DNA from: Thuidium tamariscinum
Taxonomy: Eukaryota > Streptophyta > Bryopsida > Hypnales > Thuidiaceae
Direction: 5' to 3'
Assembly: GCA_947034885.2 (NCBI GenBank)
Contig: OX344752.2
Span: 21,289,386-21,353,385 of the forward strand
DNA length: 64,000 bases
In this document: in pieces, positions 18,908 through 62,886 of the stretch
Position numbering within the stretch: position 1 is the first letter of the stretch
How the letters are laid out: each line of letters begins with the position of its first letter
The notes under the pieces: model-generated
What the model was told of the DNA's origin: nothing
The model's input: only the letters and a program-made list of their open reading frames with translations
Database searches by the model: none
Translations under genes and position numbers: made by a program

Positions 18908-18916
18908 CTCGCACCG

Positions 18917-35387: not shown

Positions 35388-35605
35388 CTAAAAATAGAGA
35401 CATGAGGACCAGATTAGATACAGTACTGAAGTAACGCCTTAGTTACATATCAGTCATTTATTAGTCCAAAGTGTCATTCAATAGTCAAATCCCCTTACAA
35501 CAAGTACTCATATATGACTTCAACGACAGTTACGGGTGACTACCAAGTTCCCTACAAGTCACATATAAGTCATTTTTTTGGTCAGTGCGAGAATTTCACA
35601 CTCAC
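35388..35605 (-). other. Intron of the CACTA transposase gene
   Basis: GTGAGT donor at 35605-35600 and TTTTTAG acceptor ending at 35388. It interrupts the transposase just before LDLMHCE. It also holds AGTCAT-type motifs. Confidence 0.75.
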
Positions 35606-37378: not shown

Positions 37379-38045
37379 CTGGACCCCGGAGACAAGATTG
37401 TATACCCGTGATACAAAACTTAGAAAGTGGGATGCTTGGCAGCTCGATTATGTGACTTCAGACTTGCTCCCATGACTGACATTTCTGCGGAGTAACTGAT
37501 AAATGTCTCCCACAAGTCAAGACTACGTTTATTAGTCATTCAAAAGTCAAAAATGTTCATAGGTATATGACTGAAGTGTGTCACATGGTGACCTCAAGGA
37601 AGACAAACTTTGACATGCTTTGGCAACACGAAAGTCATCTGAGTACTACCAGAGAAAGTGCTTCTTACTGTCCTCAGCAAAGTAGAAAACACAATTCATA
37701 AATAGGAAATAGAACATGACCTCACATGTGATTCCTTCAACACATTGGGGTTAGAACTTGATCATTGTAACATCTTCCATGAGAACACATTTCACAAGGG
37801 CCATTCAACACAATGGAAACTACTATGGAACAAAGTTATGCTTTTTCATTAATGCATATTTCTGAACATGTCATCCACTCCGACTAGCCTTGTCTGGAAG
37901 GCGATTGCAGGCCTCCAGAGTAGTGGAGACACCCGCCACAATTCTAGGCACAGGTTCTACGAAGGGGGGGTCAACTGATGGTTGTACTACTGAAGATACA
38001 CCAAGGGCCAGAGCAACCCAAGCTTCAAAACGCCTATGTAACTCA
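37379..38045 (-). other. Upstream region of the CACTA transposase
   Basis: AGTCAT-type motifs are dense at 37440-37640. A frame at 38125-37871 (HWVSASMTRVD, then RRFEAWVALALG) looks protein-like and may continue the small frame that ends at 38046, with a shift near 38125. I cannot assign it. Confidence 0.35.
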
Positions 38046-42730: not shown

Positions 42731-43443
42731 GTAAGTTCCCATTCTATTTGTGAGGTCCCTTTCTGGTCATGGCTTGCTGTACACACGTATAGAGTATCAT
42801 GAGGGGCAGCCTATGATGTGTGAACTCTTGGAATGGCCAAGCAAGTAGGCTAGCAGTAGTAGGTAGATTTCAAATTGGAGCATGACCTACCAATATGTCA
42901 TCCCGTGCCATTGATTAATTAGAAAGGGATGATTCCTCAATGCGAGGCTGCCGGCAGTAGATTTGGTGAATGTATTGGCAATACCTCTCTGTAGCATTGT
43001 TTTTTAGTGGATAAAGCAGAAGGTTGTGGGTGCAATTTTTCGTAAGCAAAGTTCTAATCATACACAAGTGTATGGTGCTTGAAGATACACTCCTCGTTGT
43101 TTGGTGTTTAGTTGGAGCCATCGTACCAAAGTCTTCGTAGTGGTATCTGAATCATTGTGCTCCGTCCATGTAGTCATTTAGGAGTCGCTCTGCAGTCTCC
43201 CCTTAGTCATACCTGAGTTGCTCTTCAGTCTCACAGTAGTCATACCTGAGTTGCTCTTCAGTCTCACATTAGTCATACCTGAGTTGCTCTGCAGTCTTGA
43301 CGTAGTCACGTAGGAGTCGCAGTGAAGTCACCTTGTAGTTGTTTTGCAATCATTATGAAGTTAAAGTTCTGTCTGTGGAGTTGTAGCTAACTGGGGGTGA
43401 CCGTGCGGCCGACGGTCATTGTCCTTTACGTGCCTGTGAGCAG
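42731..43443 (+). other. Intron of the second CACTA gene with a 33-bp tandem repeat
   Basis: Between 43200 and 43300 a 33-bp unit containing AGTCATACCTGAGTTGCTCT is repeated three times (starts near 43205, 43238 and 43271). It is a local amplification of the AGTCAT motif found across the element. GAGCAG at 43438-43443 is the proposed acceptor. Confidence 0.7.
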
Positions 43444-45181
43444 ATTCTGGGTACAGGTGACTCAGCTCGATGGGAAGCCATGGAATTGTGGAAGAAGGAT
43501 GTGGACGTCAAAATCGGGCAATTCCTCGCAAATTCAACTGCGCAGACGGCGGCCCTAGCTGACTTGCGCTCAATGGTGTCCATCATCGTGGGCACTCCTC
43601 CAAACACGAATGAAGGAAGTCCTTCCATGTTGCAGTCAGCGTTGGAGGACGTCGACTTCCATGCCAGGGCTACATGTGAAGCCGTTGGGGTGATGCCGAA
43701 GTCCAAGAAGAAAATGAAGTCCCCTAAAGCCGGAGTAGCCACCGTTGTTGATTCAGCAGAAGAGAGAAGAGGTCCTCCTGGTTTGTCACGGAAAGAAGTG
43801 GGCAATGAGATCACTGCAGTGGCTGCAGACATCACGCTTTCAGATTCCGAGCTTGAGCGTCTGCCACCTGTAGCCCAAGCACTGAACTCAAAATCCATGC
43901 CCAAAGAGTGGAAGGTGATTGAGCGTGTGGTTCATGGATCAGTTGCACAGGCAGTTGCGGTCTCACAAGACAAAGTAGATGCAAAGCTTGTGAGTGGCGT
44001 AGGCCCAGAGTCCGCTTGGGAGGTGGCAACCCCTCGTCTGTCCCCATTGAGAAAACCAACAACCACGGCTGTGCCGCATAGCGAGGGAACGGGAGAAGTT
44101 GTGCATTTGGAGCACAACACAACTGAAGAAACCACACCAATGGAAGAGCATGAAGGAGGGGAAGACATAGCAGGAGGAGACTGGCTGCCAGGCACGCCTG
44201 ATAGCGGAGGTCCTGCTCCGCCAACTTCACCGTCTCGCAACGACCGCAACATGGTGAACGAGGAGGACAATGAGGTTGCAGTGGTGGCAGCGGAGAAAGC
44301 CTCGACCACACCACCCGTGGAGGAGCCAACTGAAGACCACGCGGCAGTTGTGGAAGCAGACCCTCCAGCCCCCGCAGCCCCTTCACCATCACAGCCGAAG
44401 TCGAAGAAACCCCCGAAGTTGCCTGTGAAGGTATTTCCCCTGCCCGACGTTCGCCCACTAACGTCGAGTGAGGTGAGACCTTCCGGTACCCTGGACCAAT
44501 GGCCTCAATTATTTGAATGTCCTCAAGTCAAATTAGTGATTTTCAATGTACATGGTACATTGTTAGATTGTAGTATGCTGTCAGAGGTGAATCCGAACCC
44601 TAAAATTAGAAGCACCGTGAACACAACACTGAGGAGGGTCATCTTCCGTCCATGGTTGAAGACCTTCCTTTGCCGATGCTTTGAAAATTTCAGTGTGGGG
44701 TTTTGGGGAAGCGGTAGTAAGTCGCATATGAATGATGTCCTGCCCACCATCCTTCGTGATTTGCCATGTGAGAATGCAGCCCCCTTGTTTGCCTGGTCTG
44801 GTGACGTTCTTGAGGGCGAGGATACTTTAGATGGCTGCACCCCTAAGTGGGGTAAACAACTAGAGGCAGTGTACTATAGATGGCCCTATTTCAGCGGAGC
44901 CAATACAATGATCATAGATAGTAAACCCGATAGAGTCAACTGCAATCCTGATGCTAACGTAATCATCAGCACCCCATTCTACGTGAAGTGGATGTGTTCA
45001 TTGGCAGATGACAAGGAGTACTTGAAACAGTACCTGTGGCCACTTTTGGAGGCTTGGAACTCATGCCTGGACATCACTGATTTCCGTTCCAAATTTCCCG
45101 AAATTATCAACGAATCCATGTCACAAATGCTGCATAGACGCCGAAGTGGACATCCATATGAGTTTCTCGATATTCTTGAAG
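43444..45181 (+). CDS. CACTA second gene: long exon with an FCP1/NIF-like HAD domain lacking catalytic Asp
   Basis: The exon continues the frame in phase 0 (ILGTGDSARWEAMELWKKDV). The first about 320 residues are disordered, rich in Pro, Ser, Glu and Val. An FCP1/NIF-type HAD domain follows (about 44527-45090). It has KLVIFNVHGTLLDC at the place of the DxDGTL motif, then VIFRPWLKTFL, FSVGFWGSGS, LFAWSGDVLEG, NTMIIDSKPDRVNCNPDAN and a final helix DKEYLKQYLWPLLEAW. The two catalytic Asp residues of DxD are Asn and His, so the domain should not dephosphorylate and may bind protein instead. A GTGAGG donor follows at 45182. Such a domain is not a usual CACTA part and suggests capture from a host gene. 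Confidence 0.72.
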
Positions 45182-45277
45182 GTGAGGGGACTAGCTGCCC
45201 CCGGGCTTGCATCCGTGAAAGCATCCCCTCACCTTCCCTTGGTCGTTTTATCTAATAGTCTGTCGATGTGTCTGCAG

Positions 45278-45680: not shown

Positions 45681-45688
45681 GTGTGGAG
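45681..45688. repeat. 8-bp target duplication GTGTGGAG, left
   Basis: The octamer directly precedes the hAT inverted repeat and recurs exactly at 62879-62886. Eight base pairs is the hallmark of hAT elements. Confidence 0.97.
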
Positions 45689-46023
45689 CAGGGTTGTCAT
45701 AACGGACGAGTCAGGGTCACCGGACGTCCCGGACGGACGGGCGAGGCGGACCGGACGACTCCATTTTTCAAAGTAGTGGGACTTTATTGGGTTGACACGT
45801 CAGCTTAGAAAACGAGATCCAAGGCGCAGACGTCTCCGTCAGGGCGCGGACTTCATCGTGTCACCGTCAGGGCGCGGACTTCACCGTCAGCGTCAAGGCG
45901 CGGACTCGAACAAGTAGGGCGCGGACTCGAACAAGTAGGGCGCGGACTCGAACAAGTAGGGCGCGGACTTCTGCGTGTACGTCAGGGCGCGGACTTCACC
46001 GTTAGTGTTAGGGCGCGGACCTC
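45689..46023. promoter_or_regulatory. hAT left terminus with subterminal GC-rich motifs
   Basis: The inverted repeat is followed by CGGACG-type motifs (ACGTCCCGGACGGACGGGCG near 45743). Then come about nine copies of (G)GGCGCGGAC(T/C), three of them in identical 23-bp steps with CGAACAAGTA between. Reiterated short motifs in this position bind the transposase in Ac (AAACGG). I infer the same role here. Confidence 0.7.
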
Positions 46024-46932
46024 AACATAAGGGATGACTTCACCAAAAAAAAATCATGGTAAGAAACTTATTTTTTAGCCCTTCGTAGGCTGTCAAAATT
46101 GGTAATTGTCAAAAGTTTCAAAGAACTACACCTGTTGAGAGATTTCAAATATCTTCTTCACCAAACCTTTTTTTACCTTGAAATGGTTTGAAAACATATT
46201 AAGAACATAGAGATTATTCCATGACAAAAATTTCACGGCAAAAAAACCAAGACTCAATCCTTACTCCTTAAAAAGGTGTCAAAGTTGAAAGTAGTGAAAT
46301 GTTTCTCACTACTACCCATCTTGGTAGATTTTGAATAACTTTTCTTTCCTAAATCTTTTGGCCTTGAAATTTGTCACATATAATTAACTTCAAGGTTATG
46401 CTGTGGAAAAAATTTTGTGGTTAAATACTATTTTTTGAGCTCACGGGAGGCTTTCAAAATTGGCCATACCAAAAAAATTCTCACTGCAAATTCGAAAAAG
46501 ACTTTTTCTTTATTGGTACCCCATTGTACAAAATAAAATAGCCACATCACAAACCTTGAAATTAAATTCAACTATCAAACCCAATTCATCATTGAAGTCA
46601 AAGTGCCTCTCATATTAAATAGAATTAGCCTACAAAATATATTACATGATTGCACTCACCAATGTTTCCAACATGCACGTCAAAATGTCAAATACAAAAA
46701 CATTATAGACATATTAGTCGGCTTCAATCTTTATGATAACCAAAAGTATTTATAAAATTCATGCATTGCAATTTGCAAAGTACAATAACAATACAATGAA
46801 TCTATACTTCCTAAATATGCCCACTTTCTCATCGGTTATCTAAGCCATTCCTTTGGCTTCTCGTCCATCTTTCTTTTAATTGCTACAATTATATTCAACT
46901 CTTAAAGACACGAGATCTACCATTGGTGCAAC
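46024..46932. other. AT-rich hAT left subterminal spacer
   Basis: It holds degenerate repeats of roughly 180 bp (shared phrases GGCTGTCAAAATTGG and GGCTTTCAAAATTGG near 46090 and 46450). No gene is seen. Confidence 0.5.
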
Positions 46933-49900
46933 TCAGTTATTGAAACGACTCGACCTACGAACTTCTTGGGCACTAGGATCCACTACATTAGCATCTCGAA
47001 CAACAACATCATCATCCTGTGGTGCCTCATCGCAGTTTGGATCATCCTCGTCATTGGCATCTTCGTTGCTGTCATATTCATCTTCTGCTTCACCACTATC
47101 TGTGGTCCAATGTCCCTCAATCTCTGAGTTTTCATTTCGAAGCTCTACAATAGTTTGACCTTGACTACGTTTGCGCTTGAACCTCTTATGTCGTAGTGCG
47201 TTGGGGTCTTCTGCATCAGAATTTATAGTGGGCCCACTTGAAACTCGAGGAACAACAAATGTCGGGGTTGACCTACTAGGTCCTGGTACGTATGTATCCA
47301 AGAACGGTTCTACCACCCTATTTGAGTCTCTTGCCCCTATTCCAAGGAGTGGACGATGAGTAGGCCTTGACGATGATGCTTCTCCAATATGTGGACCTTC
47401 TCTTCCTCCACGACCTCTAGTCCCTCCACGGCCTCCAATCCCTCCTCGGCCTCCAGCCCTTCCACGGCCTCCCATCCTTCCACGACCTTGTTGATATTGA
47501 CCCACTTCATGATGAATGGAGGGCCGAGGTGCCGTAGGTGGTCTACCACCAACAGTACTACGAGAAATGTTTTGAGGAGTCATATCAACATTTCTCATAG
47601 AGCCTAACCCTTCTTCAAAAGGTCTTTGGATGGCATTGGAAGTTGCTGGTGAAGATGGGTCTAGGGAATGTGGCGCTTGGCTAGTTTGGTCAGAACCAAC
47701 TAGAGTGGGTTCACGCGCAAGGTCTTCTGGTGCATCAATAAATGCAAAAACATCATTGTAGTCTACATGCTCTGGATCAAAACGCCTTCTCACATTACTT
47801 GCCGATTGATTCCTTCCAATGGGGCGAGCCATTCTTGCATTTCTAACGTTTCTGTCATGGTGTCGTTCAACAACAATATTGCTACGAACTGATGCTCCCA
47901 TTCTTGTAGGCCCTGTATTGCCATCTTGATTGTGAGAAGATCCTCCACAATTTGGATTTGCAATCCTCCCCATGTTTCCGCCACCATTTCCATTTCCATT
48001 TCCACCACCATTTCCATTTCCGCCGCGATTTTCATTTTCACCGCCACTTCCATTATTGCTTCCATTTCCATTTCCGCCGCCATTTCCTGGAGGGAGGTCG
48101 TCATCATTGTCGTTGTTGTTATGGGAGATGCCATCATCCACGTCATCGTCATTTGGATTGGCGGCCTCTGAAGAAGATGACAAAGCTTGGACTTCTGCGA
48201 CCCCTTCATTTTGAGGAGGAGGAGGTGAAGGACTGCGACGAGGATTAGGTACCCAAGGACCCCAACGACCACCAACGGGTTCTTCCTCTCCATCGTCAGC
48301 ATCTCCATAGTAGTTTCTCGCTTCCTCGAGGTGATCGGCACCTCGCCTCCAAAGATCTGGGTTCGCCGGATACTCTTGAGGTGCTTCATTGGCTTCCACA
48401 CCAACTTCTTCTTCTTCCTCTGCTTGCATTGCGTCAAATTCCCAATTGCGTTCATTCAAAGGGATCGGACCAAGGGCATCTGGATTGGAATCCTCCGAGT
48501 AGATATTTGCATCATACCAACGAACTGGATCGGCTCCTGGTCTTTCCTGAAGTACACGGCTATTAGTATAAATATATACCAATGACTCTGCCTTCGCGGG
48601 GGCTAATCGATTTCGGACCCTATTGTGAATAAAGGAATACATACTCCAATTCCTTTCACAAGAGCTGGCCGAACACGTGAGGGATAGAATACGCACGGCA
48701 ATTTTTGAAAGAGCCCGATCTCCAACCCTATGCCACCATTGGTGGGGAAGCATTTGTGTCACACGGATGTTGGGTGTCTCAGCTGCACTGTACGGTCCAC
48801 TACCCTCCTCAAATTGAGTTAATTCCGCCAACACATCATCAAAAGTGACACCCACTACATCTTCCATTTTGTGGATGACTCTGTACAATGCACGTAGCGC
48901 AGTTCCGTCTACCCTGAGCGCCACGTTATCCAAGAGGTATGGATTCAAAAGGGCCGCGGCATAGTGCGTATCTTCAAAAATCATGTCCCATCTTTCATTG
49001 AAAGATCTCTCCAAAGTGACTGCTATGTCATCTCGTAAGCTAAAAGGTGGTTCTCTCAAAGAATACACGTGTCCTCGCAAGTTGTGCATCACGAGCCACG
49101 CCCGACCCATGGCTGGTTCTCGTCCATCAAACACACGCAAAGCCTTCAATACGTCTTCAGCCATGTACACGTAATTCACACATCGTTGCCAAAAGGCCAC
49201 ATCTTCAATGGTTCTTCTGACATTACGTGAAGCGGTAGCTGCCTGTGGTCCATTCTGTTCGTTTCGTAGGGTATCATAATAATTTATAACACGGGGGTGG
49301 TTATTCAACCGCTCCAAGACTCCTCTGAGTTTGACCACTCGCTGTAACATGAGGAAATTACAAGCAAAGCGAGTTTCGCTAGGCACTACGAGTTGTAGGT
49401 TTGGACTCAACTCACGAAAAACCGACATGGTTGCATGATGGTTTCGAATGTATTGGCACAATCTTCTTGCCCTGTCAATTAAATCGGAAAATTCCTGAAT
49501 CTTGGCCCAATCTTCCAACATCAAATCCAATGCATGTGCCATGTAGCCTTGCGCAAATATGTGCGGATAGGTTAGAGTAATGTCTCTCAATGCCCCAAGC
49601 ATGTTTGCTGCATTATCTGTGCAAACTTGTGTCACATATTTGGAACCCACCTTCTCAATGTAAACTTTCATTTGGTCTGCTATATAGCGCATGGTTTTCT
49701 TTTGTGAGGTAGTGTCAATTGACCCCAAAAATACATCACCTGCGGGGCATGACATCATCACATTCATGAGGGGCCTCCGATTGACATCATCCCAACCATC
49801 GGTGCATATCGTCACCCCATAGTGCTTGACAGCAAAACCAACCTTCTCTTCAATCTTCTTCTCGATTTGCAACCTCCTTGGTTCAATTAAATTAGTTCTG

Positions 49901-50529
49901 AACTGATGGTAAGAAGGCGGACTATATTCAAACCTCGCCACTGAGGTTGCCCTCACAGCCTCAATGAAGGCTGGATGCCTTGCCACATTAAATGGCACAT
50001 TTGCTTCATAGAAAAAACTTGCCCACTTGTCATCCAACTCCTTCCTCTTTGCAATGTTGAATGCGTCCGCCATGCGTCTCTGACGTAATGATCCTGATCT
50101 TATAGAATTTGAACCTGCAAGACTATTGGACGTTTGTAGAATTTCATTTCCTTCAGGAACGTTTGCCCGTTCTTCCGCTCTCCCACCAGTGACCCCATCC
50201 GTCACCTCATTTTCAGTGGCTTCGCTTGAACTTGCAAGTGGAGTTGCTCTAGCCGGTCCACTGTGAATTGGTTCTCCTTCACACATGTTCCCGGCATCCA
50301 CTCGTAGTGGGACAAAACCTGCACAATTGGCAAACCTATGTCGCACTTCACGAGGCATATTTGGACAAATTGACCTCTCCGATTTTGCGCCATATCCGAA
50401 ATGTGCAAAAGCACGCTCACGTTTGTAACAGAAGGTCCCAGTACAGAAAACACAAGTCACTTTAGTCCCATTCTCCGTGAAGTTCAGCCACGGTTCCCAG
50501 TCCTTGGTCTGCCTCCTCTGACTTGCCAT
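46933..50529 (-). CDS. hAT transposase, 1198 aa, apparently intact
   Basis: I start at the ATG of MASQRRQTKDWEPW; the frame is open a little further up but without another ATG. A BED-like zinc finger (CVFC near residue 26, then His and Cys) is followed by a DUF659-type core with TICTDGWDDVNRRPLMN (Asp 244) and VTQVCTDNAANMLGAL (Asp 305). The C-terminal dimerisation region (SLTCSASSCERNWSMYSFIH, Glu 625) completes the D-D-E triad. The last about 530 residues are extra: acidic stretches, an Asn/Gly-rich tract and an RGG-rich box (about residues 1075-1105). Typical plant hAT transposases end near the dimerisation region. No stop or shift is seen, so it may be active. A TATA box at 50783-50790 and a GGGCGCGGAC cluster lie upstream. 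Confidence 0.93.
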   Translation of the reverse strand: MASQRRQTKDWEPWLNFTENGTKVTCVFCTGTFCYKRERAFAHFGYGAKSERSICPNMPREVRHRFANCAGFVPLRVDAGNMCEGEPIHSGPARATPLASSSEATENEVTDGVTGGRAEERANVPEGNEILQTSNSLAGSNSIRSGSLRQRRMADAFNIAKRKELDDKWASFFYEANVPFNVARHPAFIEAVRATSVARFEYSPPSYHQFRTNLIEPRRLQIEKKIEEKVGFAVKHYGVTICTDGWDDVNRRPLMNVMMSCPAGDVFLGSIDTTSQKKTMRYIADQMKVYIEKVGSKYVTQVCTDNAANMLGALRDITLTYPHIFAQGYMAHALDLMLEDWAKIQEFSDLIDRARRLCQYIRNHHATMSVFRELSPNLQLVVPSETRFACNFLMLQRVVKLRGVLERLNNHPRVINYYDTLRNEQNGPQAATASRNVRRTIEDVAFWQRCVNYVYMAEDVLKALRVFDGREPAMGRAWLVMHNLRGHVYSLREPPFSLRDDIAVTLERSFNERWDMIFEDTHYAAALLNPYLLDNVALRVDGTALRALYRVIHKMEDVVGVTFDDVLAELTQFEEGSGPYSAAETPNIRVTQMLPHQWWHRVGDRALSKIAVRILSLTCSASSCERNWSMYSFIHNRVRNRLAPAKAESLVYIYTNSRVLQERPGADPVRWYDANIYSEDSNPDALGPIPLNERNWEFDAMQAEEEEEVGVEANEAPQEYPANPDLWRRGADHLEEARNYYGDADDGEEEPVGGRWGPWVPNPRRSPSPPPPQNEGVAEVQALSSSSEAANPNDDDVDDGISHNNNDNDDDLPPGNGGGNGNGSNNGSGGENENRGGNGNGGGNGNGNGGGNMGRIANPNCGGSSHNQDGNTGPTRMGASVRSNIVVERHHDRNVRNARMARPIGRNQSASNVRRRFDPEHVDYNDVFAFIDAPEDLAREPTLVGSDQTSQAPHSLDPSSPATSNAIQRPFEEGLGSMRNVDMTPQNISRSTVGGRPPTAPRPSIHHEVGQYQQGRGRMGGRGRAGGRGGIGGRGGTRGRGGREGPHIGEASSSRPTHRPLLGIGARDSNRVVEPFLDTYVPGPSRSTPTFVVPRVSSGPTINSDAEDPNALRHKRFKRKRSQGQTIVELRNENSEIEGHWTTDSGEAEDEYDSNEDANDEDDPNCDEAPQDDDVVVRDANVVDPSAQEVRRSSRFNN

Positions 50530-50782
50530 TGCATTCACAGATAATTTGAAATGCCTTCCCCTTCTTTGTGCTGAATTTAAGAAGACAGAAGATCTAACGG
50601 GCAAAGTATCAGTAACATCAGTTAGCGCTAATCCACTGCTTGAACTGATTTTGACATCACCTCAGCAGCAAACCAGGGCAATCTGCCACCCAAGTAGACT
50701 CACAAGGAGCTCAAAATGAATTGAAGTCCAAGAGATAGAGGCCAAGGTGACAAATGTAGGGAATGCAAGGTTCAGGATTTCC

Positions 50783-50790
50783 TTTATATA
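50783..50790 (-). promoter_or_regulatory. TATA box of the hAT transposase gene
   Basis: TATATAAA on the minus strand lies about 255 bp before the transposase ATG and directly downstream of the motif cluster 50803-51314. Confidence 0.65.
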
Positions 50791-50802
50791 CTTGGGGAAG
50801 GT

Positions 50803-51314
50803 AGGGGCGCGGACTTCACCGTTACAGGGCACGGACTTCAATCCCAAAGTCTATGCACACCTAAATCCCTGCCGTCAGGGCGTCGACTTCAGGGTGGGGA
50901 CTCCTGCACAGGGCGGGGACTCCAGGGCGCGGACGGGAAGTCAGGGCGCAGACTTGAGGGCGGTGAACTTTGACAACGTTCAAAATGCACACCTGAATCC
51001 CTAGCGGTCTGGGCGGGGACGGGAAGGCAGGGCGCGGACTTCAGGGCGGGGACGGGAAGTCAGGGCGCGGACTTCAGGGCGGGGACGAGAAGGCAGGGCG
51101 CGGACTTTAGGGCGGAGAATTTGTGAACTTTGACAACCTCCAAAATGCACACATGAATCCTTGGCGTCAAGGCGGGGACGGGAAGTCAGGGCGGGGACTT
51201 CAGGGCGGTGAACTTTGACAACGTTCAAAATGCACACCTGAGTCTGGGCGGGGACAGGAAGACAGGGCGTGGACTTCAGGGCGCGGACTTGAAGTCAGGG
51301 CGCGGACGTCCTCG
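50803..51314. promoter_or_regulatory. GGGCGCGGAC motif cluster at the transposase promoter
   Basis: Roughly 20 copies of GGGCG(C/G)GGAC, often as TCAGGGCGCGGACTTCAGG, alternate with a repeated AACTTTGACAAC(G/C)T(T/C)CAAAATGCACAC phrase (near 50967, 51134, 51212). The same motif fills both hAT termini, so the transposase could bind its own promoter. Binding is inferred. Confidence 0.7.
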
Positions 51315-52289
51315 TCCAGCACTATTTGCAGTGCACTTGGGTACGAGATTTTTGAATTCACCTTTTGTTGGAGCGGGAGAACCATTAATGTAACCAATAC
51401 AGCTTGTTCTAAATTCAGAGAACACCATGACAGCAAGATGCCACCTTAAAGAGCTGAACGGCCTAAGATTTGGAAGGTATTTATGGAAGTGCATGTCCCG
51501 TTTCTTGTGTTGCAAGATGTCATTCCTTAGTTCTCCTAACCATTTTACCACTTTGAAGCAAGAAATATTTTATTTCCCCAAAAAATCACACAAATTCTTT
51601 GATTTAGGAATGTTTAGGAAATACTTAATAAATGTATAGGACATACTTAAACCATATCATTCATACAAAACCTTTGGCTTTGTTGTTTAATAAATGCAAT
51701 GGTTTAGGGTTCTTTTCTTTTAAAAAAAGAAGATACCAAAATTAAGAGATCAACAAAAAGAGATTGCAAAGGAACTTCTTGAAAAACCATGTCCCCTTCT
51801 TTGATTTGGAAGATGTCATTGTTTACTTTGTAAAGAAACAACATTGAAGGGAAATATATGTACTGATGAAAACAAACAACTCAAAATATTTTGTTTTTCA
51901 CTTTCAACATTCCTCAAGCAAATTCTTTGTTTGCGTAAAGGCTACGTTTCATAAATTATGCTCAATTTTGTTGAATGTTTAAAGTATTATTGTAATGCTA
52001 AAAGGGATTATTTATGAAATGAAAGTTATTCAATTCTTGTAGACTGATGTTCACCACATTCAATTCCTTAAACAATTGCTGTAGGGGAACAATTCTGGTT
52101 TACGATTAATTAAATCTTACATTCTTTTGGATTTACGTAAACAAATTCATTTTTGTTTTATATTTCATACAAGGGATTTTTTTAAATGAATTTCTATTGC
52201 TTTGTTTGTTTTTTGTTTTTTGTTTTTAAAACGAGTGGCAAACCATTGCATTAAATGAATACTATTTTGTTTTATTTCAATCACATGGA
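51315..52289. other. hAT internal non-coding DNA
   Basis: The first 230 bp resemble 54690-54905 (GGAGCGGGAGAACC..., CAGCAAGATGCCA, TTTGGAAG), showing an internal duplication. The rest is AT-rich without a gene. Confidence 0.5.
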
Positions 52290-53107
52290 AGGGATTCACT
52301 TTTGACCATTTTAACTACAACTCTACAAGGGATTCTTTTTAAACGAGAACTTAGATCTTCCATTCTCTTGGATTCACGTGAAGGGAATTGTTTTTGTGGA
52401 TGCTTGTTACAACTAATTCGTGTAGCCTAAGGTATGAGCATCATACTCTTGAATTCACTATTCTTATAAGGGGATGCATTTTTGACCATTTTAACTACAA
52501 GGGATTCTTTTTGAACGAGAACTTAGATCTTCCATTCTCTTGGATTCACATGAAGGGAATTGTTTTTGTGGATGCTTGTTACAACTAATTCGTGTAGCCT
52601 AAGGTATGAGCATCATACTCTTGAATTCACTATTCTTATAAGGGGATGCATTATTGACCATTTTAACTACAAGGGATTCTTTTTGAACGAGAACTTAGAT
52701 CTTCCATTCTCTTGGATTCACGTGAAGGGAATTGTTTTTGTGGATGCTTGTTACAACTAATTCGTGTAGCCTAAGGTATGAGCATCATACTCTTGAATTC
52801 ACTATTCTTATAAGGGGATGCATTATTGACCATTTTAACTACAAGGGATTCTTTTTGAACGAGAACTTAGATCTTCCATTCTCTTGGATTCACGTGAAGG
52901 GAATTGTTTTTGTGGATGCTTGTTACAAATAATTCGTGTAGCCTAAGGTATGAGCATCATACTCTTGAATTCACTATTCTTATAAGGGGATGCATTATTG
53001 ACCATTTTAACTACAAGGGATTCTTTTTGAACGAGAACTTAGATCTTCCATTCTCTTGGATTCACGTGAAGGGAATTGTTTTTGTGGATGTTTGTTACAA
53101 ATAATTT
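52290..53107 (+). repeat. 172-bp tandem repeat, about 4.5 near-identical copies
   Basis: Starts of the unit at 52388, 52560, 52732 and 52904 are exactly 172 bp apart. The unit includes CTTAGATCTTCCATTCTCTT and ATTCGTGTAGCCTAAGGTAT. Copies differ at only a few sites. Older diverged versions of the same phrases (GATTCAC(G/A)TGAA, GAACTT) extend from about 52080 to 53540. Identical 66-codon frames in each unit are by-products. Confidence 0.93.
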
Positions 53108-53745
53108 TTTTTAAACTTCCAAGTTCAGTTTCTTAGATTCACGTAGAAGGTAGTCATTTCTAAATAAAAGGTACAAGATATTCTTCTTTTGAATGAGAAC
53201 TTTACATTATTTTGGATTCACATGAAAAGATTCACTTTCTTGAATAATTGATAGAATGCATTTTTTAAATGAACAAATGAGTTTCATTTCTTCAAATCCA
53301 TTATTCATAAGCAAAGATTCTTTTTTTCTGCATAATAACTACAAGGGTTATTGACTTATTGTGGGGAAATGGAAAATTATAAGTTATATTTTGTTCTTAA
53401 TGTGAAAGGATCCATTTTTATAAATACTTGTTACAATGGATTCTTCCTTAATAAAACGTACAACTTAAATTGAAGTAGAAAGGTTGTAAATGGAATCCAC
53501 AATTAGAAATAATTGCTACAATAAAATCTTTTTTACATGAACTTAGAAGACATATTTTTCAGATGCATGACATAGGTTCTTTTCCGAAGGTTTAGAATAC
53601 ATTGATTTGTTTTTTAATTCAACCCTAAAACCATCTGAAATGAAGTCAAACAATCCAAACTCAAACCCTAAACCCTAATACTCCAAACCCTAAACCCTAC
53701 ACTCCTAAAACCTTTGAACCAAAGAAGCCAAGGAGTTGAAGGGAC
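53108..53745. other. Diverged satellite-like DNA
   Basis: Decayed copies of the 172-bp unit are followed at 53640-53715 by telomere-like AAACCCTAAACCCTA runs, which are short and imperfect. No gene is seen. Confidence 0.45.
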
Positions 53746-54660
53746 GCTAGGTCAGGGCGCGGACTTCAAGGCGTGGACTCCAGCACAGGGCGCGGACTCC
53801 AGTGCGCGGACTCCTGGACAGGGCGCGGACTCCAGGGCGCGGACTCCTGCACAGGGCGGGGACTCCAGGGTGCGGACCATTCTTGGTGCGCAAACGTGCA
53901 TGCAAAGAAGAAGAGGTTGACCTCCCGCATGGGATCCCTCCTTGCTCCTATTTATTGCTCTTGGAAGATGGTGTCCCTCCTTTTCATGGAAACCGGGAAC
54001 CATTAAATTTAGTCATGCCGTCTTCTACATTATGGAGAGACACGAACGCTTTCTCTCACTAATGTTTTCGTTACATTGTCTGTGTCATGGCGCGGACTTA
54101 ATGTCAGGGCGCGGACTTGAAGTCAGGGCACGGATACAGCACAAGAGAGGACTTTGAAATGCGATCGGGCATGAGAACCAGGGAAGCCAAGGAGTCGGAG
54201 GCTTGAACTTCACTGCATTGGCGCTACTCAGGGCGTGGACGTCAGGTGAGGGCGCGAACGCCAGGGCGCGAACCATTCTTGGTGCGCAAACATGCATGCA
54301 CTGCAAATGAGGTTGACTTCCCGCATGGGATCCCTCCTTGCTCCTATTTATTGATCTTACAAGATTGTGTCCCTCCTTTCATGGAAACCAGGAACCATTA
54401 AATTCAGTCATGCCTTCTTTTAGATTCTTTATAGTGATGGAGAGACAAGAAAGCTTTCTCTCACCAATGTTTTCGTGACATTGGCTATGTCAGGGCGTGG
54501 ACGTAGGGCGCGGACTTGAGGGCGGACAATTCTAATACGTGGCGCGGACTTCATGTCAGGGCGCGGACGCCAGGGCGCGGACTTGAAGTCAGGGTGCGGA
54601 CGTCAGGGCGCGGACTTGAAGTCAGGGTGCGGACGCCAGGGCATTCAGCACAAGAGGGAG
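53746..54660. promoter_or_regulatory. GC-rich motif clusters with a duplicated module inside the hAT element
   Basis: Three motif groups (53750-53880, 54085-54275 and 54490-54650) contain GGGCGCGGAC copies. The segment 53870-54090 (TTCTTGGTGCGCAAAC, CCGCATGGGATCCCTCCTTG, CTCCTATTTATTG) recurs at 54260-54490. The TATTTATTG after each cluster could act as a weak TATA box for plus-strand transcription, but no gene follows. It may be a duplicated promoter that lost its gene. Confidence 0.55.
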
Positions 54661-55139
54661 GACTTTGAAGTGCGATCGGGCATGAGATCCTTCAATCTTT
54701 CCTTTTCTTGGAGCGGGGGAACCTTTAATTTTAGGAAGAACAACTTGTTCAACATTCCGACAAGACCATGAAAGCAAGATGCCAAATTGAAGAGCTCAAT
54801 GGACTAAGGTTTGGAAGAAACTTCGTGGAAGAGCATGTACCCTTTGTTGTGGTGGAACATGTCGTTCCTTATGTCTTCTAACACTCCGAACTACTTTGAA
54901 CCTTATTTGTGTCCCCAAGAAGAAACTAGTACTTTGAACTAAAAAGAATTTTTAGATTTAAAAAAAGAAGTCTAGATTCTTCTATTTAGCAAATGTTCCG
55001 GATATTTTGAGGAAATATTTAGGGAATATAGAGGAAATGTAGTGTACTAGATACAAGGCTAAAACTTAATTTGTTTAAAATGAAAGAAGTAGTAGAGATT
55101 TAAACAAAAAATTGTAGACCTCCAGTACGCCACTTCAAT
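54661..55139. other. hAT internal non-coding DNA
   Basis: The first part is the second copy of the 51340-51560 sequence; the rest is AT-rich with no gene. Confidence 0.4.
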
Positions 55140-57240
55140 TTTTCATCTCATCATCCCCTTTCCAATTTTTTATGCATCGAAAGCAAAACTATCTTATCCG
55201 AAGTCAATGCCATCTTTTTATTTCTTAATTCAATTCCTTGTCCATTTCTTTTGCTTCATTAATTAGCGAAACTCTTATATTTTTGGCCTCTAATGCAAAA
55301 ATTCTTTTATGCAAAGTCATTGTCATTCCTTTTTGTTGAATTATTTAGCCCCCTTGTTTTGTGGCATCATTCCTTATGTATTGAATCGTTTTATCTCCTT
55401 TTTTTTTACTTCATTCCTAAAACTCTTGCATTCAAATTGAATGCCAATTTGTTTTTACGTCATTCGTTTTCCTATTTATTTCCCATTAATTAGCAAAGCT
55501 CTCATTCTCCAACTGTATGCCATCCTTTTTTTGTTGCATCATTCTATCTTTTTTTGTCACCATTTTCTTTTCAGATTTTCATTTCTATTGGTCTTCATTA
55601 ATTTCTAGAACTCTTTTATCGTAATTAGCAATACCAATATTTATTAGTTGAATCATTGCATTGCCTTTCCTAAATGTATTTGGCTTCATTGATTAGCAAA
55701 GCTCTTTCATCCAATGTCAATGGGAATTTCTTTTGTACCACCAGCTAACCAACCTCTTTACTATTTCTTATTATGTTTTTACTTTATGGTTTAGCAAAAC
55801 TTGTCCATGTAACTCAATACCAATTTTTTTTCGCCCTCATTCTCGTTCCTTATTTTTTAACCCTGAACCAAAATCTTTTCCGTCTTAATAAATTGTAATT
55901 TTTTTTCCCGTCAATCCCTTTCCTATTTTTTTTATTCATTAGGAAAACTCTTCCATCCCAACTCAATAATAAATGTTTTTTATGGTAAGAAATGGAAGTC
56001 TTTCCATTCGCTTTCCATTTCTCGTTTATTAAAATAGGTAATCAAACACAATGTTTGTTACATATCTCTTTCACATTTGTTTGCTTTTATTAAGAACATC
56101 TAAAATGCACTTTCACTCCAACTAAATGACGTTTTTTTCCCTTACCTAATTTTTTTCATAGATTGGAAATGAATTCCACTCCAATTCAATGACTTTTCAT
56201 TTCATTCCATACATGTTTTTATGATTGAATCCTATTCCAAGTCAATGACATTTTACTTCATCAATTTCAAGTCAATGAAAATTGATTTTTTCGCCACTAA
56301 ATTTTTTTATATTGGGTAACCATTTTTTATTAAATATGTACCTATTTCCATGCCAATTTAATCATCCCTACTTACTTTTCCCATTTTTTTGTACTTTGGG
56401 TAACAATACACTTCCATTGTAGGTCTGGCAATTACGTGATAGGAAATTGAAGGATGAGTGTTTGGGATTATAGTCAATCACTTTAACTTGTAAGTGAAGT
56501 TTAGAATCATTCCCAAATAAAATTTACGAAAGCTTGGGTCTCTCTACCCCTCTTTTGGGTGCATTTATTTTGAAAGCACTTACATTCCAAGTCAATGCCT
56601 TTTCAACTTTTCTTTTGTTGGATTCCTTTTCTTTCATTTTTTTTGGCTTCATTAGCATAATTGTTCCATCTCAAGTTATGGAAGAAGTAAATGGCACTAC
56701 TGTTGTCTTCCTAACTTTTTTCCAACCGAATGCCATTCATTTTTCTTTGATCATTACCTTCCTCATTATTCGAAATTCATTAGCCACATGTTCCATCCCA
56801 ACATAAGACGATTTATTTCCTAAACTCTTTATAGTTTTATTTTATTGATTTGGAAGATTATTTTGTCCCAATTGAATGCCATTTTTTGTGGATATCATTC
56901 CCTCCCTAATTGTTTTTGGCAGCATTTGCAACATTATCCCATGCCATCCCAATGCACTTTATTTATTGTATATCATTCCCCCCTACTTTTTGGGGGCTTG
57001 ATTAGCGAAATTGTTCCATCTCACTAGAATGCCCTCTATTTTTTGGTGGTATCTCAAGTGAATGCCATTTACTTGTTTTCTATCATTAGCAACATTAGAA
57101 ATGAGTTTTTTTCCAATATAATGGCATTTGTTGTCCTTCCCTAATTTTATTCATTCATGGAAAAATGGAAATGAATTATAGTACAATACTCCAATTCAAT
57201 GACATTTCATTTTAGGATATAATTTTTGTATATGTATGAT
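55140..57240 (+). repeat. T-rich degenerate repeat array
   Basis: A loose unit of about 80-130 bp recurs at least a dozen times: CATTAATTAGCAAA, then CTCTTCCATCCCAACTCAAT, GCCA and a T run. Clear copies lie near 55256, 55490, 55688, 55940, 56645, 56770 and 57000. The short frames in it have no protein character. Confidence 0.6.
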
Positions 57241-57764
57241 GTTGTTTCAAAAGAGTATGTGCAAAAAAAAAAAAAGTGATTTTGGCCTGGATTTTGGGCT
57301 AAATAATATATATTTCATAAGCGTCATGGAATACATAGTTGGAAAAGTATATGACAAGGTTACTATAACCATGACACCATCTAAAAATGCATGTGCCAAT
57401 ATCTAATATAACGAATAATATCTATTGCCGAGATCAAAATTCTATAAGCCTATATTAAGCTAGGACCCTAAGTCTTCTATGAAAACATAAGTTCACTAGC
57501 TAGATAGTAGAAACTTCACTTAGTCTATGTCCATTGCACTGCCACTTGGGCCAGCCTCGTTGTCATGTGTCCCTGCAATGACAGGAAGGTCTTCGTCCGA
57601 GCCTAAACGAGTCTACGAACTGCGGATCGAGTTCTCCGCACTGGTCCATCTTCCTCCAATACAGCCCTCATGATCTGTGATTGTTTGAGGCTCTCAAGAC
57701 ATTGGCGAGTTCGAGGGCTATGCTGTTCAAGCAAGAAATCCATCCCTTCATGTCGAAAGGTTTC
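57241..57764. other. 3' flank of the RING gene
   Basis: No separate gene is seen. A more GC-rich stretch at 57530-57760 may be the 3' untranslated region of the minus-strand RING gene. Confidence 0.4.
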
Positions 57765-59804
57765 TCACCACTCTGACTCCTCTAGTTGAACTAGTTCAGC
57801 AGGGTTAGGCATGTCAATGTCGTCCACCATACGAATCCCATCGTCGTTAGTGATACAAACTCCATCCCTATTCCAAAACCACTGTTTAGGATGAGGTCCA
57901 AATTGAAAGTTCTCAAAAACCTCGTCCCAATGCCCATTGAAGCACTGATAGAAGAAATTCCGTCGTCCTTGGCTATACTTGTCCTTCATTGGAATCAAGT
58001 GTTGACACACCTCCACTATTTGAGCTGGATTTTTTTCCCAACCCCATTCGGCAGAAAGGTTTTGTTTATCCAAGGAATGGAGCTTCAATTTCCAACTCCA
58101 CACCAAGTCAGTTCCCCACTTCTGAGCATGATCAGGGGCATTTTCAGCATTATATTCCCAATGTGGTGGCATGTATGAAAGTAATCCAAATAAATCATAC
58201 AATCGCTCATGGAAAGGAGCCTTGCACAAGGAACACCGTCGACGAACAACCATCAAGCTAATCAAACAAAATGGATGGTACAAGTGTTCGCACGTGCCTA
58301 GGTGCATTCCACCTTCAGGGCCAAATGGATTTAGACAAATGGGACATGTAGTACCATCATACACGAAGCTTGAAGGATTTGGCCACAATAATAGTGGATT
58401 GCCGTTCTGGTCGAGGGAAGAGCCAACTTCATTCTTGAAATCCCAATGGTGTTTGGACCAATCGATGATTGTTGTTCCACCACCAATGTCTTTGGTCACC
58501 ATTTCATCCATGTTGAAATGATCATCCACAAGGGCCCACGATGTCAACCCAAAAACCCTCTCTTGATTGTATGCGCCATAATTGTTGTCGATTTTTTGGA
58601 ATTCTGACGCCATTTGCTGAGTCCTGTCAACTGAAAAGACGCATGCCATCTTCTACTGGTAATATTGCTCCATCAACGCTTTCAATTGCTCTTTCAATAT
58701 CAAATTGTTTGCAAGTGTGTCCGTCAATTGAGTGCTCTGGTCAATTGGCATTGCTTGACCTGCATTTGTGGGTAATTCTCCAAATGACAGTGCATCATCT
58801 TGAGTACCCTGTGTTGCACCAACTTCAACATGTTGCACTGGAATTTCATCATGGATTGGAGGCCCTTCCGCTCCCCCTCGTGGATCCTGACCATCATTGG
58901 CCAATGTGGCTGCTTCAAGAGCATGCTACAGCACCTCTATCTGACGTTGTTGTTCACTTATAATATTGTTCTTCTCTTTGAGTTCATCCCTCAATTTAGC
59001 AACATCTTCATACAAAGAATGCAGATGCGCATTGCTCTCTTCCACTTCAATCCTCAAACTCTGAATTCGATCTGCAGCTGCTGTAACATCAACAATTCCT
59101 ATTGTTGGTTCGTCAGTAGCTGGCACCTGTCCCTCCACAACATTTTCTTGTACACCCTCTTGAGTTGCACGCTCAGCCCTCCTCTTTTTAAGCCGTAGAT
59201 TTGTTCTATAGCTGAGTGCATGTGGCACATGAGATCCATCCGAGTCGTTATCTGTAGCAGAGTCCTCAGTGTCATGTAGTGGTGGTGCTTCAACTTGTGT
59301 CATTGTTTTACCCAGTCCACCTTGCGGGTACCTTTTTACCCCCCTTGGAATGAATCCATTTGCTGGTGTTGGAATGTTGACTTTCTCCCCCATTGTCTTC
59401 AAAGTTGACCAGTCCATTCTCTTGTTCAACTTCAATTCCGCATGTACCCCTCGTGCAATGAAGAGATGCACTTCATTGCGTTTGACAATAGGGACATCAT
59501 ACAACGCCTGGTATACTTCGATGCACCGATTTGTGAACTCCTCATCAATGCAATGTTTTAAATTTGCCTTGTGGAAGCGTCGGTGATAGTTGTGTCACTC
59601 TTCTGGGAAGACCTTGTCAATGTGGCACCACTCGATGTAATTGGCACAGGTTTCGTAAGTCCATGGGTCAGGCACGTCTTCCCACCCTTTGAATGCAAGC
59701 TTTGCGGGATTACGTAAAACATGCAACCGCTTACGATGTTTGTTTCCTCCTCGTAGTCGGGTCTTATCTCGTTCCTCCTTCCTTGGTCTTGTCGGTGTAG
59801 CCAT
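57765..59804 (-). pseudogene. RING-H2 finger protein gene, one frame with three in-frame stops
   Basis: The whole 2.04-kb stretch is open in one frame from the ATG at 59804 (MATPTRPRKEERDK) to 57765, except for TGA at 59597-59595, TAG at 58928-58926 and TAG at 58655-58653. There are no frameshifts. The N-terminal 200 residues are unknown (PDPWTYETCANYIEW, IARGVHAELKLNKRMDW). A coiled coil follows (about 59080-58930). The C-terminal third holds a RING finger: CPIC, then TCEHLYHPFC and CSLC, of C3H2C3 type. RING proteins usually act as ubiquitin ligases. It shares a bidirectional promoter region with the kinase gene. Stops at possible former CAG or CGA codons suggest recent decay; read-through is less likely. 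Confidence 0.75.
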
Positions 59805-59849
59805 TTTCACGGGAAAATGTGAAAACCTCCCACGTGGCAATCAAGAAGA

Positions 59850-60260
59850 CCCTGCACGACACTCACAACCAACTCAATGAAGAGGTGGAAGGCTTGAGAG
59901 TATGCAGGGCGGGGACAAGTGAGGCGGGGACGGGTTTATATAGGGGCAGGCGGGGGACGTCAGGGCGCGGACACCATCGCTGTCAGGGCGGGGACTCCAT
60001 CGATGTCAGGGTGCGGACGCCTCCGTCAGGGCGGGGACTCCTTCGTTGTCGGGGCGTGGACGCCTCCGTCAGGGCGGGGACTCCTTCGTTGTCGGGGCGC
60101 GGACGCCTCCGTCAGGGCGGGGACTCCTTTGTTGTCAGGGCGCGGACGTCTCCGTCAGGGCGGGGACGCGTGTGTCAGGGCGGGGACTCCACGTGTTGGG
60201 GCGGGAACGCGATGGGGATGGGGCGGGGACGTGCAGGGGGGGGACTATATAAAGCGAGTC
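59850..60260. promoter_or_regulatory. Bidirectional promoter with GGGCG(C/G)GGAC motifs and two TATA boxes
   Basis: About 20 GGGCG(C/G)GGAC copies, often GTCAGGGCGGGGACTCC, lie at 59905-60245. On the minus strand TATATAAA (59942-59935) points to the RING gene, whose ATG is 130 bp on. On the plus strand TATATAAA (60246-60253) points to the kinase ATG at 60450. The divergent layout around one motif array suggests joint control of both genes. Confidence 0.72.
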
Positions 60261-60449
60261 CCCGCCCTCATTCCTTTGCCAAGTCCGCGCCCTATGCCTC
60301 ACATGCTAGTTCGTTCCCACGGCCTATGCGAGTGAGTTTGGTGGGTGCTGGGCTTGGCTTGCATATGTGACCCGGTTTTTTTGAATTTTTTTGAAACTTT
60401 CTTGCTTCAGGATTGATACGGAGGCCTATTGGAACTTTTTTTTTCCATT

Positions 60450-62029
60450 ATGGCAGGTGAAGGGAGTGGATCAGTGGACAAACGTCCTATGTTTGTAGAC
60501 TTGGATGATATCGGTGAGACGGTAATTCCATGTACAAACACGTTGATGGCCTCAGGTTCATCAAATCCTTCCTCATCAGGCCAGAAAAAACGCAAGAAAG
60601 AACAAAATCCCCAAATACCTGGACATGAATTCATAGTCGAGGGGAGAAAAATAGCTGTGGTGTTCTACACTCGTCGAAGTACAAATATGTTGAACAGGGA
60701 GTATGTGTCGCTCAACGAAGAAGGGTACCACAAACTGACGAGGGACCTGCGAAGGGAGCTGGAGTCAAAGTTTGAAGAATCAGAAGAATTCAACAACTTC
60801 TCAGATTATTGGTTGCACCAAGAGTGGCTGGATAAACAAGTGGTCGCCTTGACAACCAATATAGTGTGTAATTGGTGTTATCACACGGGTAAGAAAGAAG
60901 ATGGTAGCGACTGGGACACGGAGGACAGAGAGATGGTTACAAAAGTGAAGGAGATTCAAACGTTTGCTCAACGATATTCTTCTTCACGTAGAAAAAAGCA
61001 AGCACTATGGAAAGTGACAATTGAAGAAGCGATAACGGCTCATTGCGTGAGTGGAACATTCAAGTGGCTAGGAAGTTCCGTGAAAGTCATCCCCATGCCG
61101 GAACAAATTGCGATTGGGTCGTATGGGACCGTGAGGAAGGTGATCTTTACGAAACTTGAGAGCATTCCTAGTTGGATATTTTTTGCTGGGAAGAGCTTGA
61201 AGACTAAGAATGAAAAGGAGAAACGCCAAGCAATCATCAATGAGGCAGGAGGGTGTCCAGTGAATCATCCTGGCATCATTCGAATGCGTACCTCCACCCT
61301 AAAACAATGGAAGGCTACACACTATGGTGGAATGGAGGATCTCTAATTTCTTTCTTGTCCAAATGCAATGCGAAAGTGAGCGAAGCACTGGATTTGAATG
61401 AGATTGAGAATGACATTTCTACGGGGCTAACGAAAGAGGAACTTTCATGGGTTGCAACGTATCGGAGAAATCGAGTGAAATTGGCATTGTCATTACTTGT
61501 CACTGTGGGGAAATGCCATGATGCGCAGTACATGCACAACGACATATCTCCATCCAATGTTTTGCTCCATTTTGATCCTTGGGAACGAAATAGGGTGTAC
61601 ATAGGGATATGTGATTGGGGACTTTCTAGCCAAGTTGTGGAGAAGGAACCATCAAGGTATGGCTATCCCAGTATGGAGATCCTTGCGAAGGAGAAAAAAA
61701 AGCGAAGGTTTGCAGCCCCAGAATTGTTTTATGTATACGGAGAGCAGGGTTCATCAAACTCCATTGAGGCCATGCAAAAAACGCATTTGTATTCTATGGC
61801 AGCTGATGCATATGCAGTGGGATGGATAGCTTCTGCAATTTGGAAAGAAGAGTGGGATCCTAAATACTTCACAACGAAAAACCCAGAGCAGTATCAGAAT
61901 TTCATGATCAAATTGGGAAGCCTCGTAAAAGAAGATGTGCGTGAAAGGGCAATAGTGCCAGATGTTCTAGAGAAATTGAAGAAGGCCCCCCACTGTTGGA
62001 CGATGCCGGATTGTTGTTATCATACATAG
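60450..62029 (+). pseudogene. Protein kinase gene carried by the hAT element, one frameshift
   Basis: Starting at ATG 60450 (MAGEGSGSVDKRPM), about 200 N-terminal residues match nothing I know. Then comes a kinase domain: glycine loop AIGSYGTVRKV (near residue 221), Lys 248 in FFAGKSLK, Glu in INEAGG, and HPGII. Near 61285 the frame shifts by one base and continues with YTLWWNGGSLISFL, the catalytic loop HNDISPSNVLL (Asp near 61541, Asn kept), DWG in place of DFG (near 61612), AAPELFYVYG and a shortened C-lobe. All catalytic residues are present, so the ancestor was probably an active kinase of about 525 residues. The Arg before the catalytic Asp is replaced (HND for HRD). I cannot place it in a named kinase family. 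Confidence 0.8.
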
Positions 62030-62665
62030 TATTTTGTTTTTAATATTTTTTGTAGTTTAGCATATATTTCAGGCATAGAAGAAAATCATCCTCGTAGAGG
62101 AGCCTATGTACCTACTTGGCAATTGCCAAACAGCTTGAATATATATTAAATCGGATGTGTAATTGTGTACCATACTCAAAATCCCAAAATATATTAATAT
62201 GCCCTTTCATTGGTCTTTCCTCATGGCATTTTTTATGACTTCTATGAATTGATGATAAAACGTAAATGAAAACTATGGATGCAATAGTTTGGTATAAAAA
62301 TGCATACACTTAATTTTTTCCACTATGCCTATGTTTTAGGAGTCACATATGCAGAAGTGATTTGGATATGGAAATGGTTTGCATGTTATAGTGAGGTAAT
62401 TTAACACCTCCTAAAAATATAAAATGGTGTAGTAATTTGGATATGAAAATGGTTTGGATGTTAGAATGATGTAATTTCACACCTAAAAAAAATGGAATGG
62501 TGGAGTAATTTGGATATGAAAATGGTTTGGGTATTAGACTAATTAGAGTGATATGATGTAACATTAAGAAAAATATAAAGTGTTGGAGTGACTAGGAAAG
62601 TGGGAATATGGAATATAAAAAGGAAATATGTAGAAGCATATTAATTAATTTTAAGGTGGTCCCAA
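62030..62665. other. AT-rich 3' flank of the kinase gene
   Basis: It contains a degenerate 70-80-bp repeat (TTTGGATATG(A/G)AAATGGTTTG near 62359, 62437 and 62507). No gene is seen. Confidence 0.5.
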
Positions 62666-62878
62666 ATCCTGTCCGCGCCCTGACGATCCCGTCCGCGCCC
62701 TGCATGTTCGGGAATCCACATGGCAACCACGTGGCAGCCACATGGCAGCCATGTGGCCTATTTTTCCATTATCAAAAAGTCAACTATGTGTTGACTCTAC
62801 CGGACGGGCAAGAGCTCTATCGGACGTCCCGGACGGACGGACGGGCGAATCGGACGTCCGCCTGGTATGACAACCCTG
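62666..62878. promoter_or_regulatory. hAT right terminus with inverted subterminal motifs
   Basis: Two GTCCGCGCCCTG motifs (near 62678 and 62692) are the inverse of the left-end motif. CGGACGTCCCGGACGGACGG follows near 62821 and the element ends ...TATGACAACCCTG. The opposite motif orientation at the two ends is as expected for transposase-binding subterminal repeats. A short imperfect CCACATGGCAACCACGTGGC repeat lies at 62716-62755. Confidence 0.7.
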
Positions 62879-62886
62879 GTGTGGAG
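62879..62886. repeat. 8-bp target duplication GTGTGGAG, right
   Basis: Exact copy of 45681-45688. Confidence 0.97.

Follow-up and report, generated by a model that had tools for sequence, protein, structure and literature searches.

A RING-finger gene and a protein kinase gene accompany the transposase in two diverged hAT transposon families of the moss Thuidium tamariscinum

An element of 17.2 kb lies at positions 45689-62878 of a 64,000-bp stretch of the Thuidium tamariscinum genome (contig OX344752.2, positions 21,289,386 to 21,353,385; hereafter the window), and an earlier sequence-only reading took it to be a hAT transposon with a RING-finger gene and a protein kinase gene on board. To our knowledge, plant hATs contain a transposase only, with no further genes. 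The locus therefore raises the question of whether the two additional genes belong to the element or are carried along by it. Since both genes recur in most related copies and in a distant sister family, they appear to be functional components of the transposon and not hitchhikers. Since hAT-type class II elements are regarded as one-gene elements, a RING gene and a kinase gene kept through deep divergence would represent a new autonomous architecture. The families are numbered as follows: family 1 is that of the window element, family 3 is a second complete hAT, and family 2 consists of convergent gene pairs and is not counted as a proven hAT. The features of the window element are listed below, with 'motif' denoting the family 1 motif GGGCGCGGAC.

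45681-45688, no strand: left target-site duplication, GTGTGGAG
45689-45701, + strand: left terminal inverted repeat, CAGGGTTGTCATA, 13 bp
45842-46020, + strand: left subterminal array of the motif, 8 sites with at most 1 mismatch
46933-50661, - strand: hAT transposase, 1242 amino acids (aa) open from stop to stop; first ATG, at the conserved start, 50529 (1198 aa)
50784-51307, - strand: transposase promoter region, with a TATA-like box at 50784 and a motif array at 50805-51307
52291-53106: non-coding tandem array, 172-bp unit repeated 4.6 times
53755-54634, + strand: further motif array, with duplicated stretches resembling the transposase upstream region; no gene recognised
57765-59804, - strand: RING-H2 gene, a pseudogene in the window copy, with an N-terminal family domain, a coiled coil and the RING
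59805-60449: divergent RING/kinase promoter, with TATA-like boxes at 59936 (-) and 60246 (+) and a motif array at 59907-60292
60450-62029, + strand: protein kinase gene, one frameshift in the window copy
62671-62700, - strand: right subterminal motif sites, two, inverted relative to the left array
62866-62878, - strand: right terminal inverted repeat, complement of CAGGGTTGTCATA
62879-62886, no strand: right target-site duplication, GTGTGGAG

The 13-bp inverted ends and the perfect 8-bp duplication are present where the sequence-only reading had placed them, and domain searches found the transposase, the RING gene and the kinase gene enclosed between the ends of this single element. Both hAT domains of the transposase score above the Pfam cut-offs (DUF659, expect value (E) 4e-35; Dimer_Tnp_hAT, E 2.5e-8). 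The conserved hAT residues, numbered as in Ac, are D301, D367, E719, W722, S723, R733, C401 and H404 (PMC6027215). Read by eye, the window transposase keeps TDGWD, TDNAANM and CERNWS(10)R, and thus the catalytic D, D and E. The description of this transposase as intact-looking holds for the reading frame, which is open over 1242 aa, but not for the residue equivalent to C401: 5 of 7 copies have Cys there, the window copy and one further copy Tyr. The element is a hAT by every hAT test made. It shares with the hAT superfamily (Ac/Ds, Tol2, Hermes) the short inverted ends of the CAGGG... type, the 8-bp duplications, the DUF659 and Dimer_Tnp_hAT domains and the D..D..E residues with ERNWS, and differs in having two further genes that are near-constant in the moss families, a gene set not known for hATs. 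An Rfam search gave no match.

Both accessory genes are present between the ends, as had been claimed, but in the window copy neither is intact: three in-frame stops and one frameshift interrupt the RING gene, and one frameshift interrupts the kinase gene. The window copy is a decayed one. Open family 1 copies are found elsewhere in the genome and encode a RING protein of 773 aa and a kinase of 537 aa. The kinase scores above the Pfam cut-off even in the window (Pkinase, E 3e-8), and its nearest solved relatives in a profile search are CDPK, VRK1 and CK1 (E about 1e-4). The window RING domain (zf-RING_2, E 2e-5, 25.0 bits) falls just under its cut-off of 27.3. The complete RING-H2 (C3H2C3) ligand spacing is seen in an open copy of the family 1 gene, the pattern is present in all three families, and the nearest RINGs by profile search are those of RNF24 (E 7e-7) and RNF38. 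The kinase residues AGK, HND..xxN and D[WF]G (ATP-site Lys, catalytic Asp/Asn and metal-binding Asp) are likewise kept in three families. Neither protein gave a further Pfam match pointing to VANC, the anti-silencing protein discussed below. The dedicated bidirectional promoter described earlier is also supported, as 645 bp separate the two ATGs and a TATA-like box faces each gene; in full family 1 copies the TATA-like strings are exact in 6 of 6 on the RING side and for the transposase, and in 5 of 6 on the kinase side. Stretches similar to the 172-bp tandem repeat also align in the full family 1 copies that were read.

The host assembly comprises 363 Mb in 19 contigs, and the protein matches listed fall on eleven of them. 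The genome searches scored the best candidates only, and all copy numbers are therefore lower bounds. The 13-mer CAGGGTTGTCATA occurs 224 times in the genome (107 + 117), versus 2 times for a reversed control pattern. Among the first 100 of these 224 end matches, 27 plus/minus pairs no more than 24 kb apart were taken, together with part of one 34.5-kb pair; longer pairs and unpaired ends were left out. The 27 further paired-end elements span 228 bp to 23.8 kb. With the window element added, 25 of 28 have identical 8-bp flanks, and the remaining three have 3, 1 and 2 mismatches. These ends and duplications exceed what chance would give, and the genome contains many relatives of the window element. 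The transposase was found in 6 of the 28 elements, and the same six hold the RING and kinase genes in identical order and orientation; none of the three genes was detected by tblastn in the other 22. One of these gene-less elements, of 11.0 kb at 46.95 Mb of contig C3, derives from the large element by deletion, another 16 (3.8-10 kb) have only the family ends and motif arrays in common, and five of 228-291 bp lack the motif. A deletion derivative is thus present, as the sequence-only reading had expected, alongside non-autonomous relatives. The non-autonomous elements of 3.8-10 kb (L009, L026, L032-L035, L043, L044 and others) combine family ends with inverted motif arrays.

Co-occurrence was also counted from the transposase side, keeping RING and kinase matches of at least 56 % identity and dropping those of 44-45 % and 33-36 % (family 2 and other families). 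Among the 37 family 1 transposase loci listed, 34 have the RING gene upstream on the same strand, 34 have the kinase gene beyond it and 32 have both, a count that includes one locus whose kinase lies 70 kb away. The chance expectation of a RING gene in the same place is about 0.4 %, and the distance between RING gene and transposase is 6.1-7.9 kb in most loci. The exceptions are C10:5.06 Mb and C2:8.29 Mb (no kinase), C6:19.78 Mb (neither), and C8:16.52 Mb and C8:23.82 Mb (no RING). The concern that other copies might never contain the two genes is thus not borne out.

A second complete hAT, family 3, was found nested in a family 1 copy at 16.47 Mb of contig C4. It is 17,098 bp long, its ends are CAGGGTTGTCTATCC and CAGGGTTGCTTCC, both sharing CAGGGTTG, and the perfect 8-bp duplication ATACAAGG lies on both sides. 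Its transposase likewise has DUF659 and Dimer_Tnp_hAT above the Pfam cut-offs. The gene order differs from that of family 1, with the transposase (1061 aa) followed by the kinase on the other strand and then the RING protein (802 aa), and tblastn identities to family 1 are 43 % for the transposase, 30 % for the kinase and 29 % for the RING protein; a further comparison puts the three genes at 42, 32 and 33 %. There are at least 56 transposase matches (98-100 % identity), at least 87 RING matches and at least 146 kinase matches. Among the 56 transposase matches listed, 55 are accompanied by the kinase, 50 by the RING gene, 49 by both and none by neither, and the kinase lies at a coordinate offset of 5,190-5,195 or 3,550-3,552 bp in 52 of the 55 loci. 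No stop interrupts the 811 aa compared in 44 of the 56 transposase matches. Because copies of all three genes are 94-100 % alike, with mostly open frames, the full family 3 gene set appears to have been mobilised recently; by these sequences the family is young and abundant, and its near-identical copies point indirectly to transposition activity. With dozens of near-identical open copies, family 3 makes the role of the two genes testable in a haploid, transformable plant group. The term 'cargo', used in the sequence-only reading, undersells the RING and kinase genes, which two diverged hAT families keep as near-constant parts of their gene set.

Constraint on the three genes is seen at one level of comparison. 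Between families, synonymous sites are saturated (proportion of synonymous differences 0.71-0.80) and the proportion of nonsynonymous differences is 0.42-0.51, leaving about half of these sites unchanged, alike for the transposase, RING and kinase genes; in all three, codon position 3 differs most and position 2 least. This is a clear sequence signature of purifying constraint. Within family 1, the raw pooled ratios of nonsynonymous to synonymous change (dN/dS) are 0.63 for the transposase, 0.54 for the RING gene and 0.71 for the kinase gene. They were rejected as a measure of constraint, since a trinucleotide-matched expectation removes the signal; the sample of 6-7 mostly dead copies makes this a weak test. 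The comparison of copies for purifying selection on the two genes, suggested earlier, thus gave no significant constraint within family 1; constraint is seen between families only.

The third shared property is a set of motif arrays private to each family. The family 1 motif GGGCGCGGAC has 61 sites (at most 1 mismatch) in the window element and none in the remaining 46.8 kb of the window. Both subterminal regions contain sites, as do the transposase upstream region, a middle block and the stretch that separates the RING gene from the kinase gene. The family 3 motif GGACGGCCTG has 32 sites, which occupy the left end, together with the start of the transposase, and the right end, and which also precede the kinase gene and the RING gene; the three coding regions contain none. 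The family 2 motif GGGCGACCGCG has 25 sites in the upstream regions of four genes. Counted in families 1, 2 and 3, respectively, the family 1 motif has 61, 0 and 1 sites, the family 2 motif 0, 25 and 0, and the family 3 motif 0, 0 and 32. None of the three has a site in the rest of the window, and controls of local composition gave means of 0.1-1.2 and a maximum of 4. As the motifs were chosen from these same sequences, the counts in the home family are partly so by choice; this does not apply to the absence from sister families or to the position of the sites at promoters. Each family thus has its own GC-rich motif at its gene promoters, and in families 1 and 3, where both ends were read, near both ends. 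The three-gene set co-occurs with these family-private arrays; what the RING and kinase proteins might do, including the effects on silencing, the cell cycle or transposase stability proposed in the sequence-only reading, is inferred from the sequences.

In family 2, RING relatives of 44-45 % identity and kinases of about 35 % are arranged as convergent pairs. Ten such pairs were recognised by eye from the lists, nine with the genes 9-10 kb apart and one with 13 kb. The single locus that was read (L050, L049, L051) has a left end, CAGGGTTGTTCTGCC, at C5:5452619, followed by the RING gene, X3, the kinase gene and X4. Its genes span C5:5453179-5470498 (L050:9179 to L051:6498), each with its own motif array. 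X3 and X4 lack the RING but contain the RING protein's N-terminal domain (42-44 % and 40 %), and this domain is the better conserved part of the RING protein between families 1 and 2 (52 % over 158 residues). The sequence read ends at C5:5470498, short of any transposase and of the right end, and GATAACAC is the sequence expected after the right end. A gene beside this locus, at L050:2729-7345, was considered as the family 2 transposase and rejected, as its copies lie elsewhere and it belongs to another repeat.

We consider it probable that the window element is a decayed copy of an autonomous three-gene hAT in which an element protein reads the family motif, and the RING and kinase proteins keep the element expressed by acting on silencing factors or on the transposase. 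The motif would be bound by the BED-like N-terminus of the transposase or by the shared N-terminal domain of the RING proteins. Binding would turn on the element's own promoters and mark the ends of the element and of its non-autonomous relatives. The kinase, and the RING protein in its role as a ubiquitin ligase, would modify the transposase or host factors involved in silencing or chromatin, and this modification would keep the element expressed for transposition, in a manner similar to that of VANC in VANDAL elements. The two proteins would then be element-encoded regulators, perhaps anti-silencing factors. We put forward more tentatively, as a possibility that falls short of probable, that these hATs form a plant lineage with its own array-guided ubiquitin-ligase and kinase system, which reverses the silencing of promoters and ends, and that the families run separate versions that do not cross, one of them recently or still active.

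Several observations weigh against a regulatory role for the two genes. The RING domain scores below the Pfam cut-off, and modelling of the RING protein gave a poor structure (mean predicted local distance difference test score 53.5). The window copy itself has broken RING and kinase genes, and in family 1 C-to-T and G-to-A changes account for 160 of 203 transposase variants (92 of 138 for the RING gene and 55 of 90 for the kinase gene); evidently this family is methylated, or decayed in some other way, by the host. Within-family-1 constraint is not significant after correction for the mutation spectrum, with omega for shared variants of about 0.84 for the RING gene, 1.10 for the kinase gene and 0.60 for the transposase (P 0.06). 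The RING or kinase gene is missing from the lists at 5 of 37 family 1 and 7 of 56 family 3 transposase loci. Finally, non-autonomous relatives without promoters bear arrays at their ends too, an arrangement that suits a function in transposition no less than one in expression.

This last point bears on the strongest alternative, which we regard as rather unlikely: the three-gene set is real, the arrays are transposase-binding sites only, and the RING and kinase proteins act on transposition (turnover, cell-cycle timing or transposase assembly) and not on silencing. The arrays do lie just inside both ends of families 1 and 3 and of the 16 non-autonomous elements of 3.8-10 kb, inverted between the ends, and the kinase belongs to no close known family, its best profile matches being CDPK, VRK1 and CK1. 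However, arrays are also found at promoters in three families, in mid-element positions far from the ends.

Host genes captured as passengers without a role, as in Pack-type elements or ToxA in the fungal ToxhAT, would account for the broken state of both genes in many family 1 copies and for the lack of significant constraint within that family. Nevertheless, both hAT families and family 2 retain the pair, which bears a signature of purifying selection between families and is near-constant in presence. No closer cellular relative was found in 5.8 billion proteins, where the matches were unnamed metagenome and assembly proteins and two Ceratodon purpureus proteins. The latter are the only named relatives of the kinase (43-44 % identity), and their locus tags suggest the U and V chromosomes. 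We reject this explanation as very improbable, on the conservation across families and the near-constant presence.

Large DNA viruses commonly pair a kinase with a RING protein, and the two genes could have come from a virus or from a virus-transposon fusion of the Teratorn kind. This is very improbable, as no capsid or polymerase gene was recognised in the family 1 or family 3 elements, and a scan of 2.9 million viral contigs, which covered the kinase only and did not search for the RING protein, gave 15 stretches matching the peptide patterns, none of which encodes a relative. Large nested insertions are common in family 1, but a separate mobile element prone to inserting into hATs is scarcely credible as the source of the pair and was rejected, given the constant spacing and orientation, the different order in family 3, the co-occurrence, the motif common to all promoters, and the lack of second ends or duplications seen around the pair.

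Among known systems, the VANDAL elements of Arabidopsis, which are Mutator-like and carry VANB and VANC, offer a precedent for the favoured regulatory reading. They combine accessory genes with dense family-specific arrays that evolve with the family, and VANC is the element's own anti-silencing protein, which binds a short family-specific motif repeated densely and in one orientation in the non-coding parts of the element (PMC5735166). The moss elements share the arrays and differ in the transposase, which is hAT and not Mutator-like, and in the accessory proteins, as VANC is neither a RING protein nor a kinase and was not found here. Anti-silencing has been shown for VANC; for the moss RING and kinase proteins we infer it. 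If correct, the moss elements would add to VANC a second, independent instance of self-recognition coded by a motif, and would supply element-encoded proteins with possible effects on chromatin or ubiquitin pathways in plants.

The CACTA element Spm/En and Mutator each encode a second protein, TnpA and MURB, respectively, and have short subterminal binding motifs that also occur near the promoter. The moss hATs resemble them in having further proteins and motifs at both kinds of position, but superfamilies and proteins are different. ToxhAT (a 14-kb fungal hAT with ToxA) and the Starships are also large elements with extra genes; in them, however, the extra gene is host-useful cargo that varies between elements, whereas the moss hATs keep the same two genes across families. 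A survey of plant hATs lists, in the part available, no hAT in the moss Physcomitrella, and that part of its main text mentions neither a kinase nor a RING (PMC6027215). Literature searches of open-licence full texts yielded no recognised hAT with a RING gene and a kinase gene.

Other features were noted in the window. Two 255-aa frames with the same translation (13362-14129 and 21938-22705, - strand) flank gag- and pol-like frames at 14804-20470, and may lie in or beside both long terminal repeats of a Ty3-like element. A non-LTR retrotransposon frame at 27943-30426 (- strand), upstream of endonuclease/reverse-transcriptase sequence, contains GDIETNPGP, which fits the 2A 'stop-go' pattern D-x-E-x-N-P-G-P. 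Broken frames at 33428-37447 (- strand) resemble a CACTA-type (TNP2) transposase. A 622-aa frame at 43387-45255 (+ strand) has a NIF phosphatase-like domain (Pfam E 4e-9) and ends 430 bp to the left of the hAT element.

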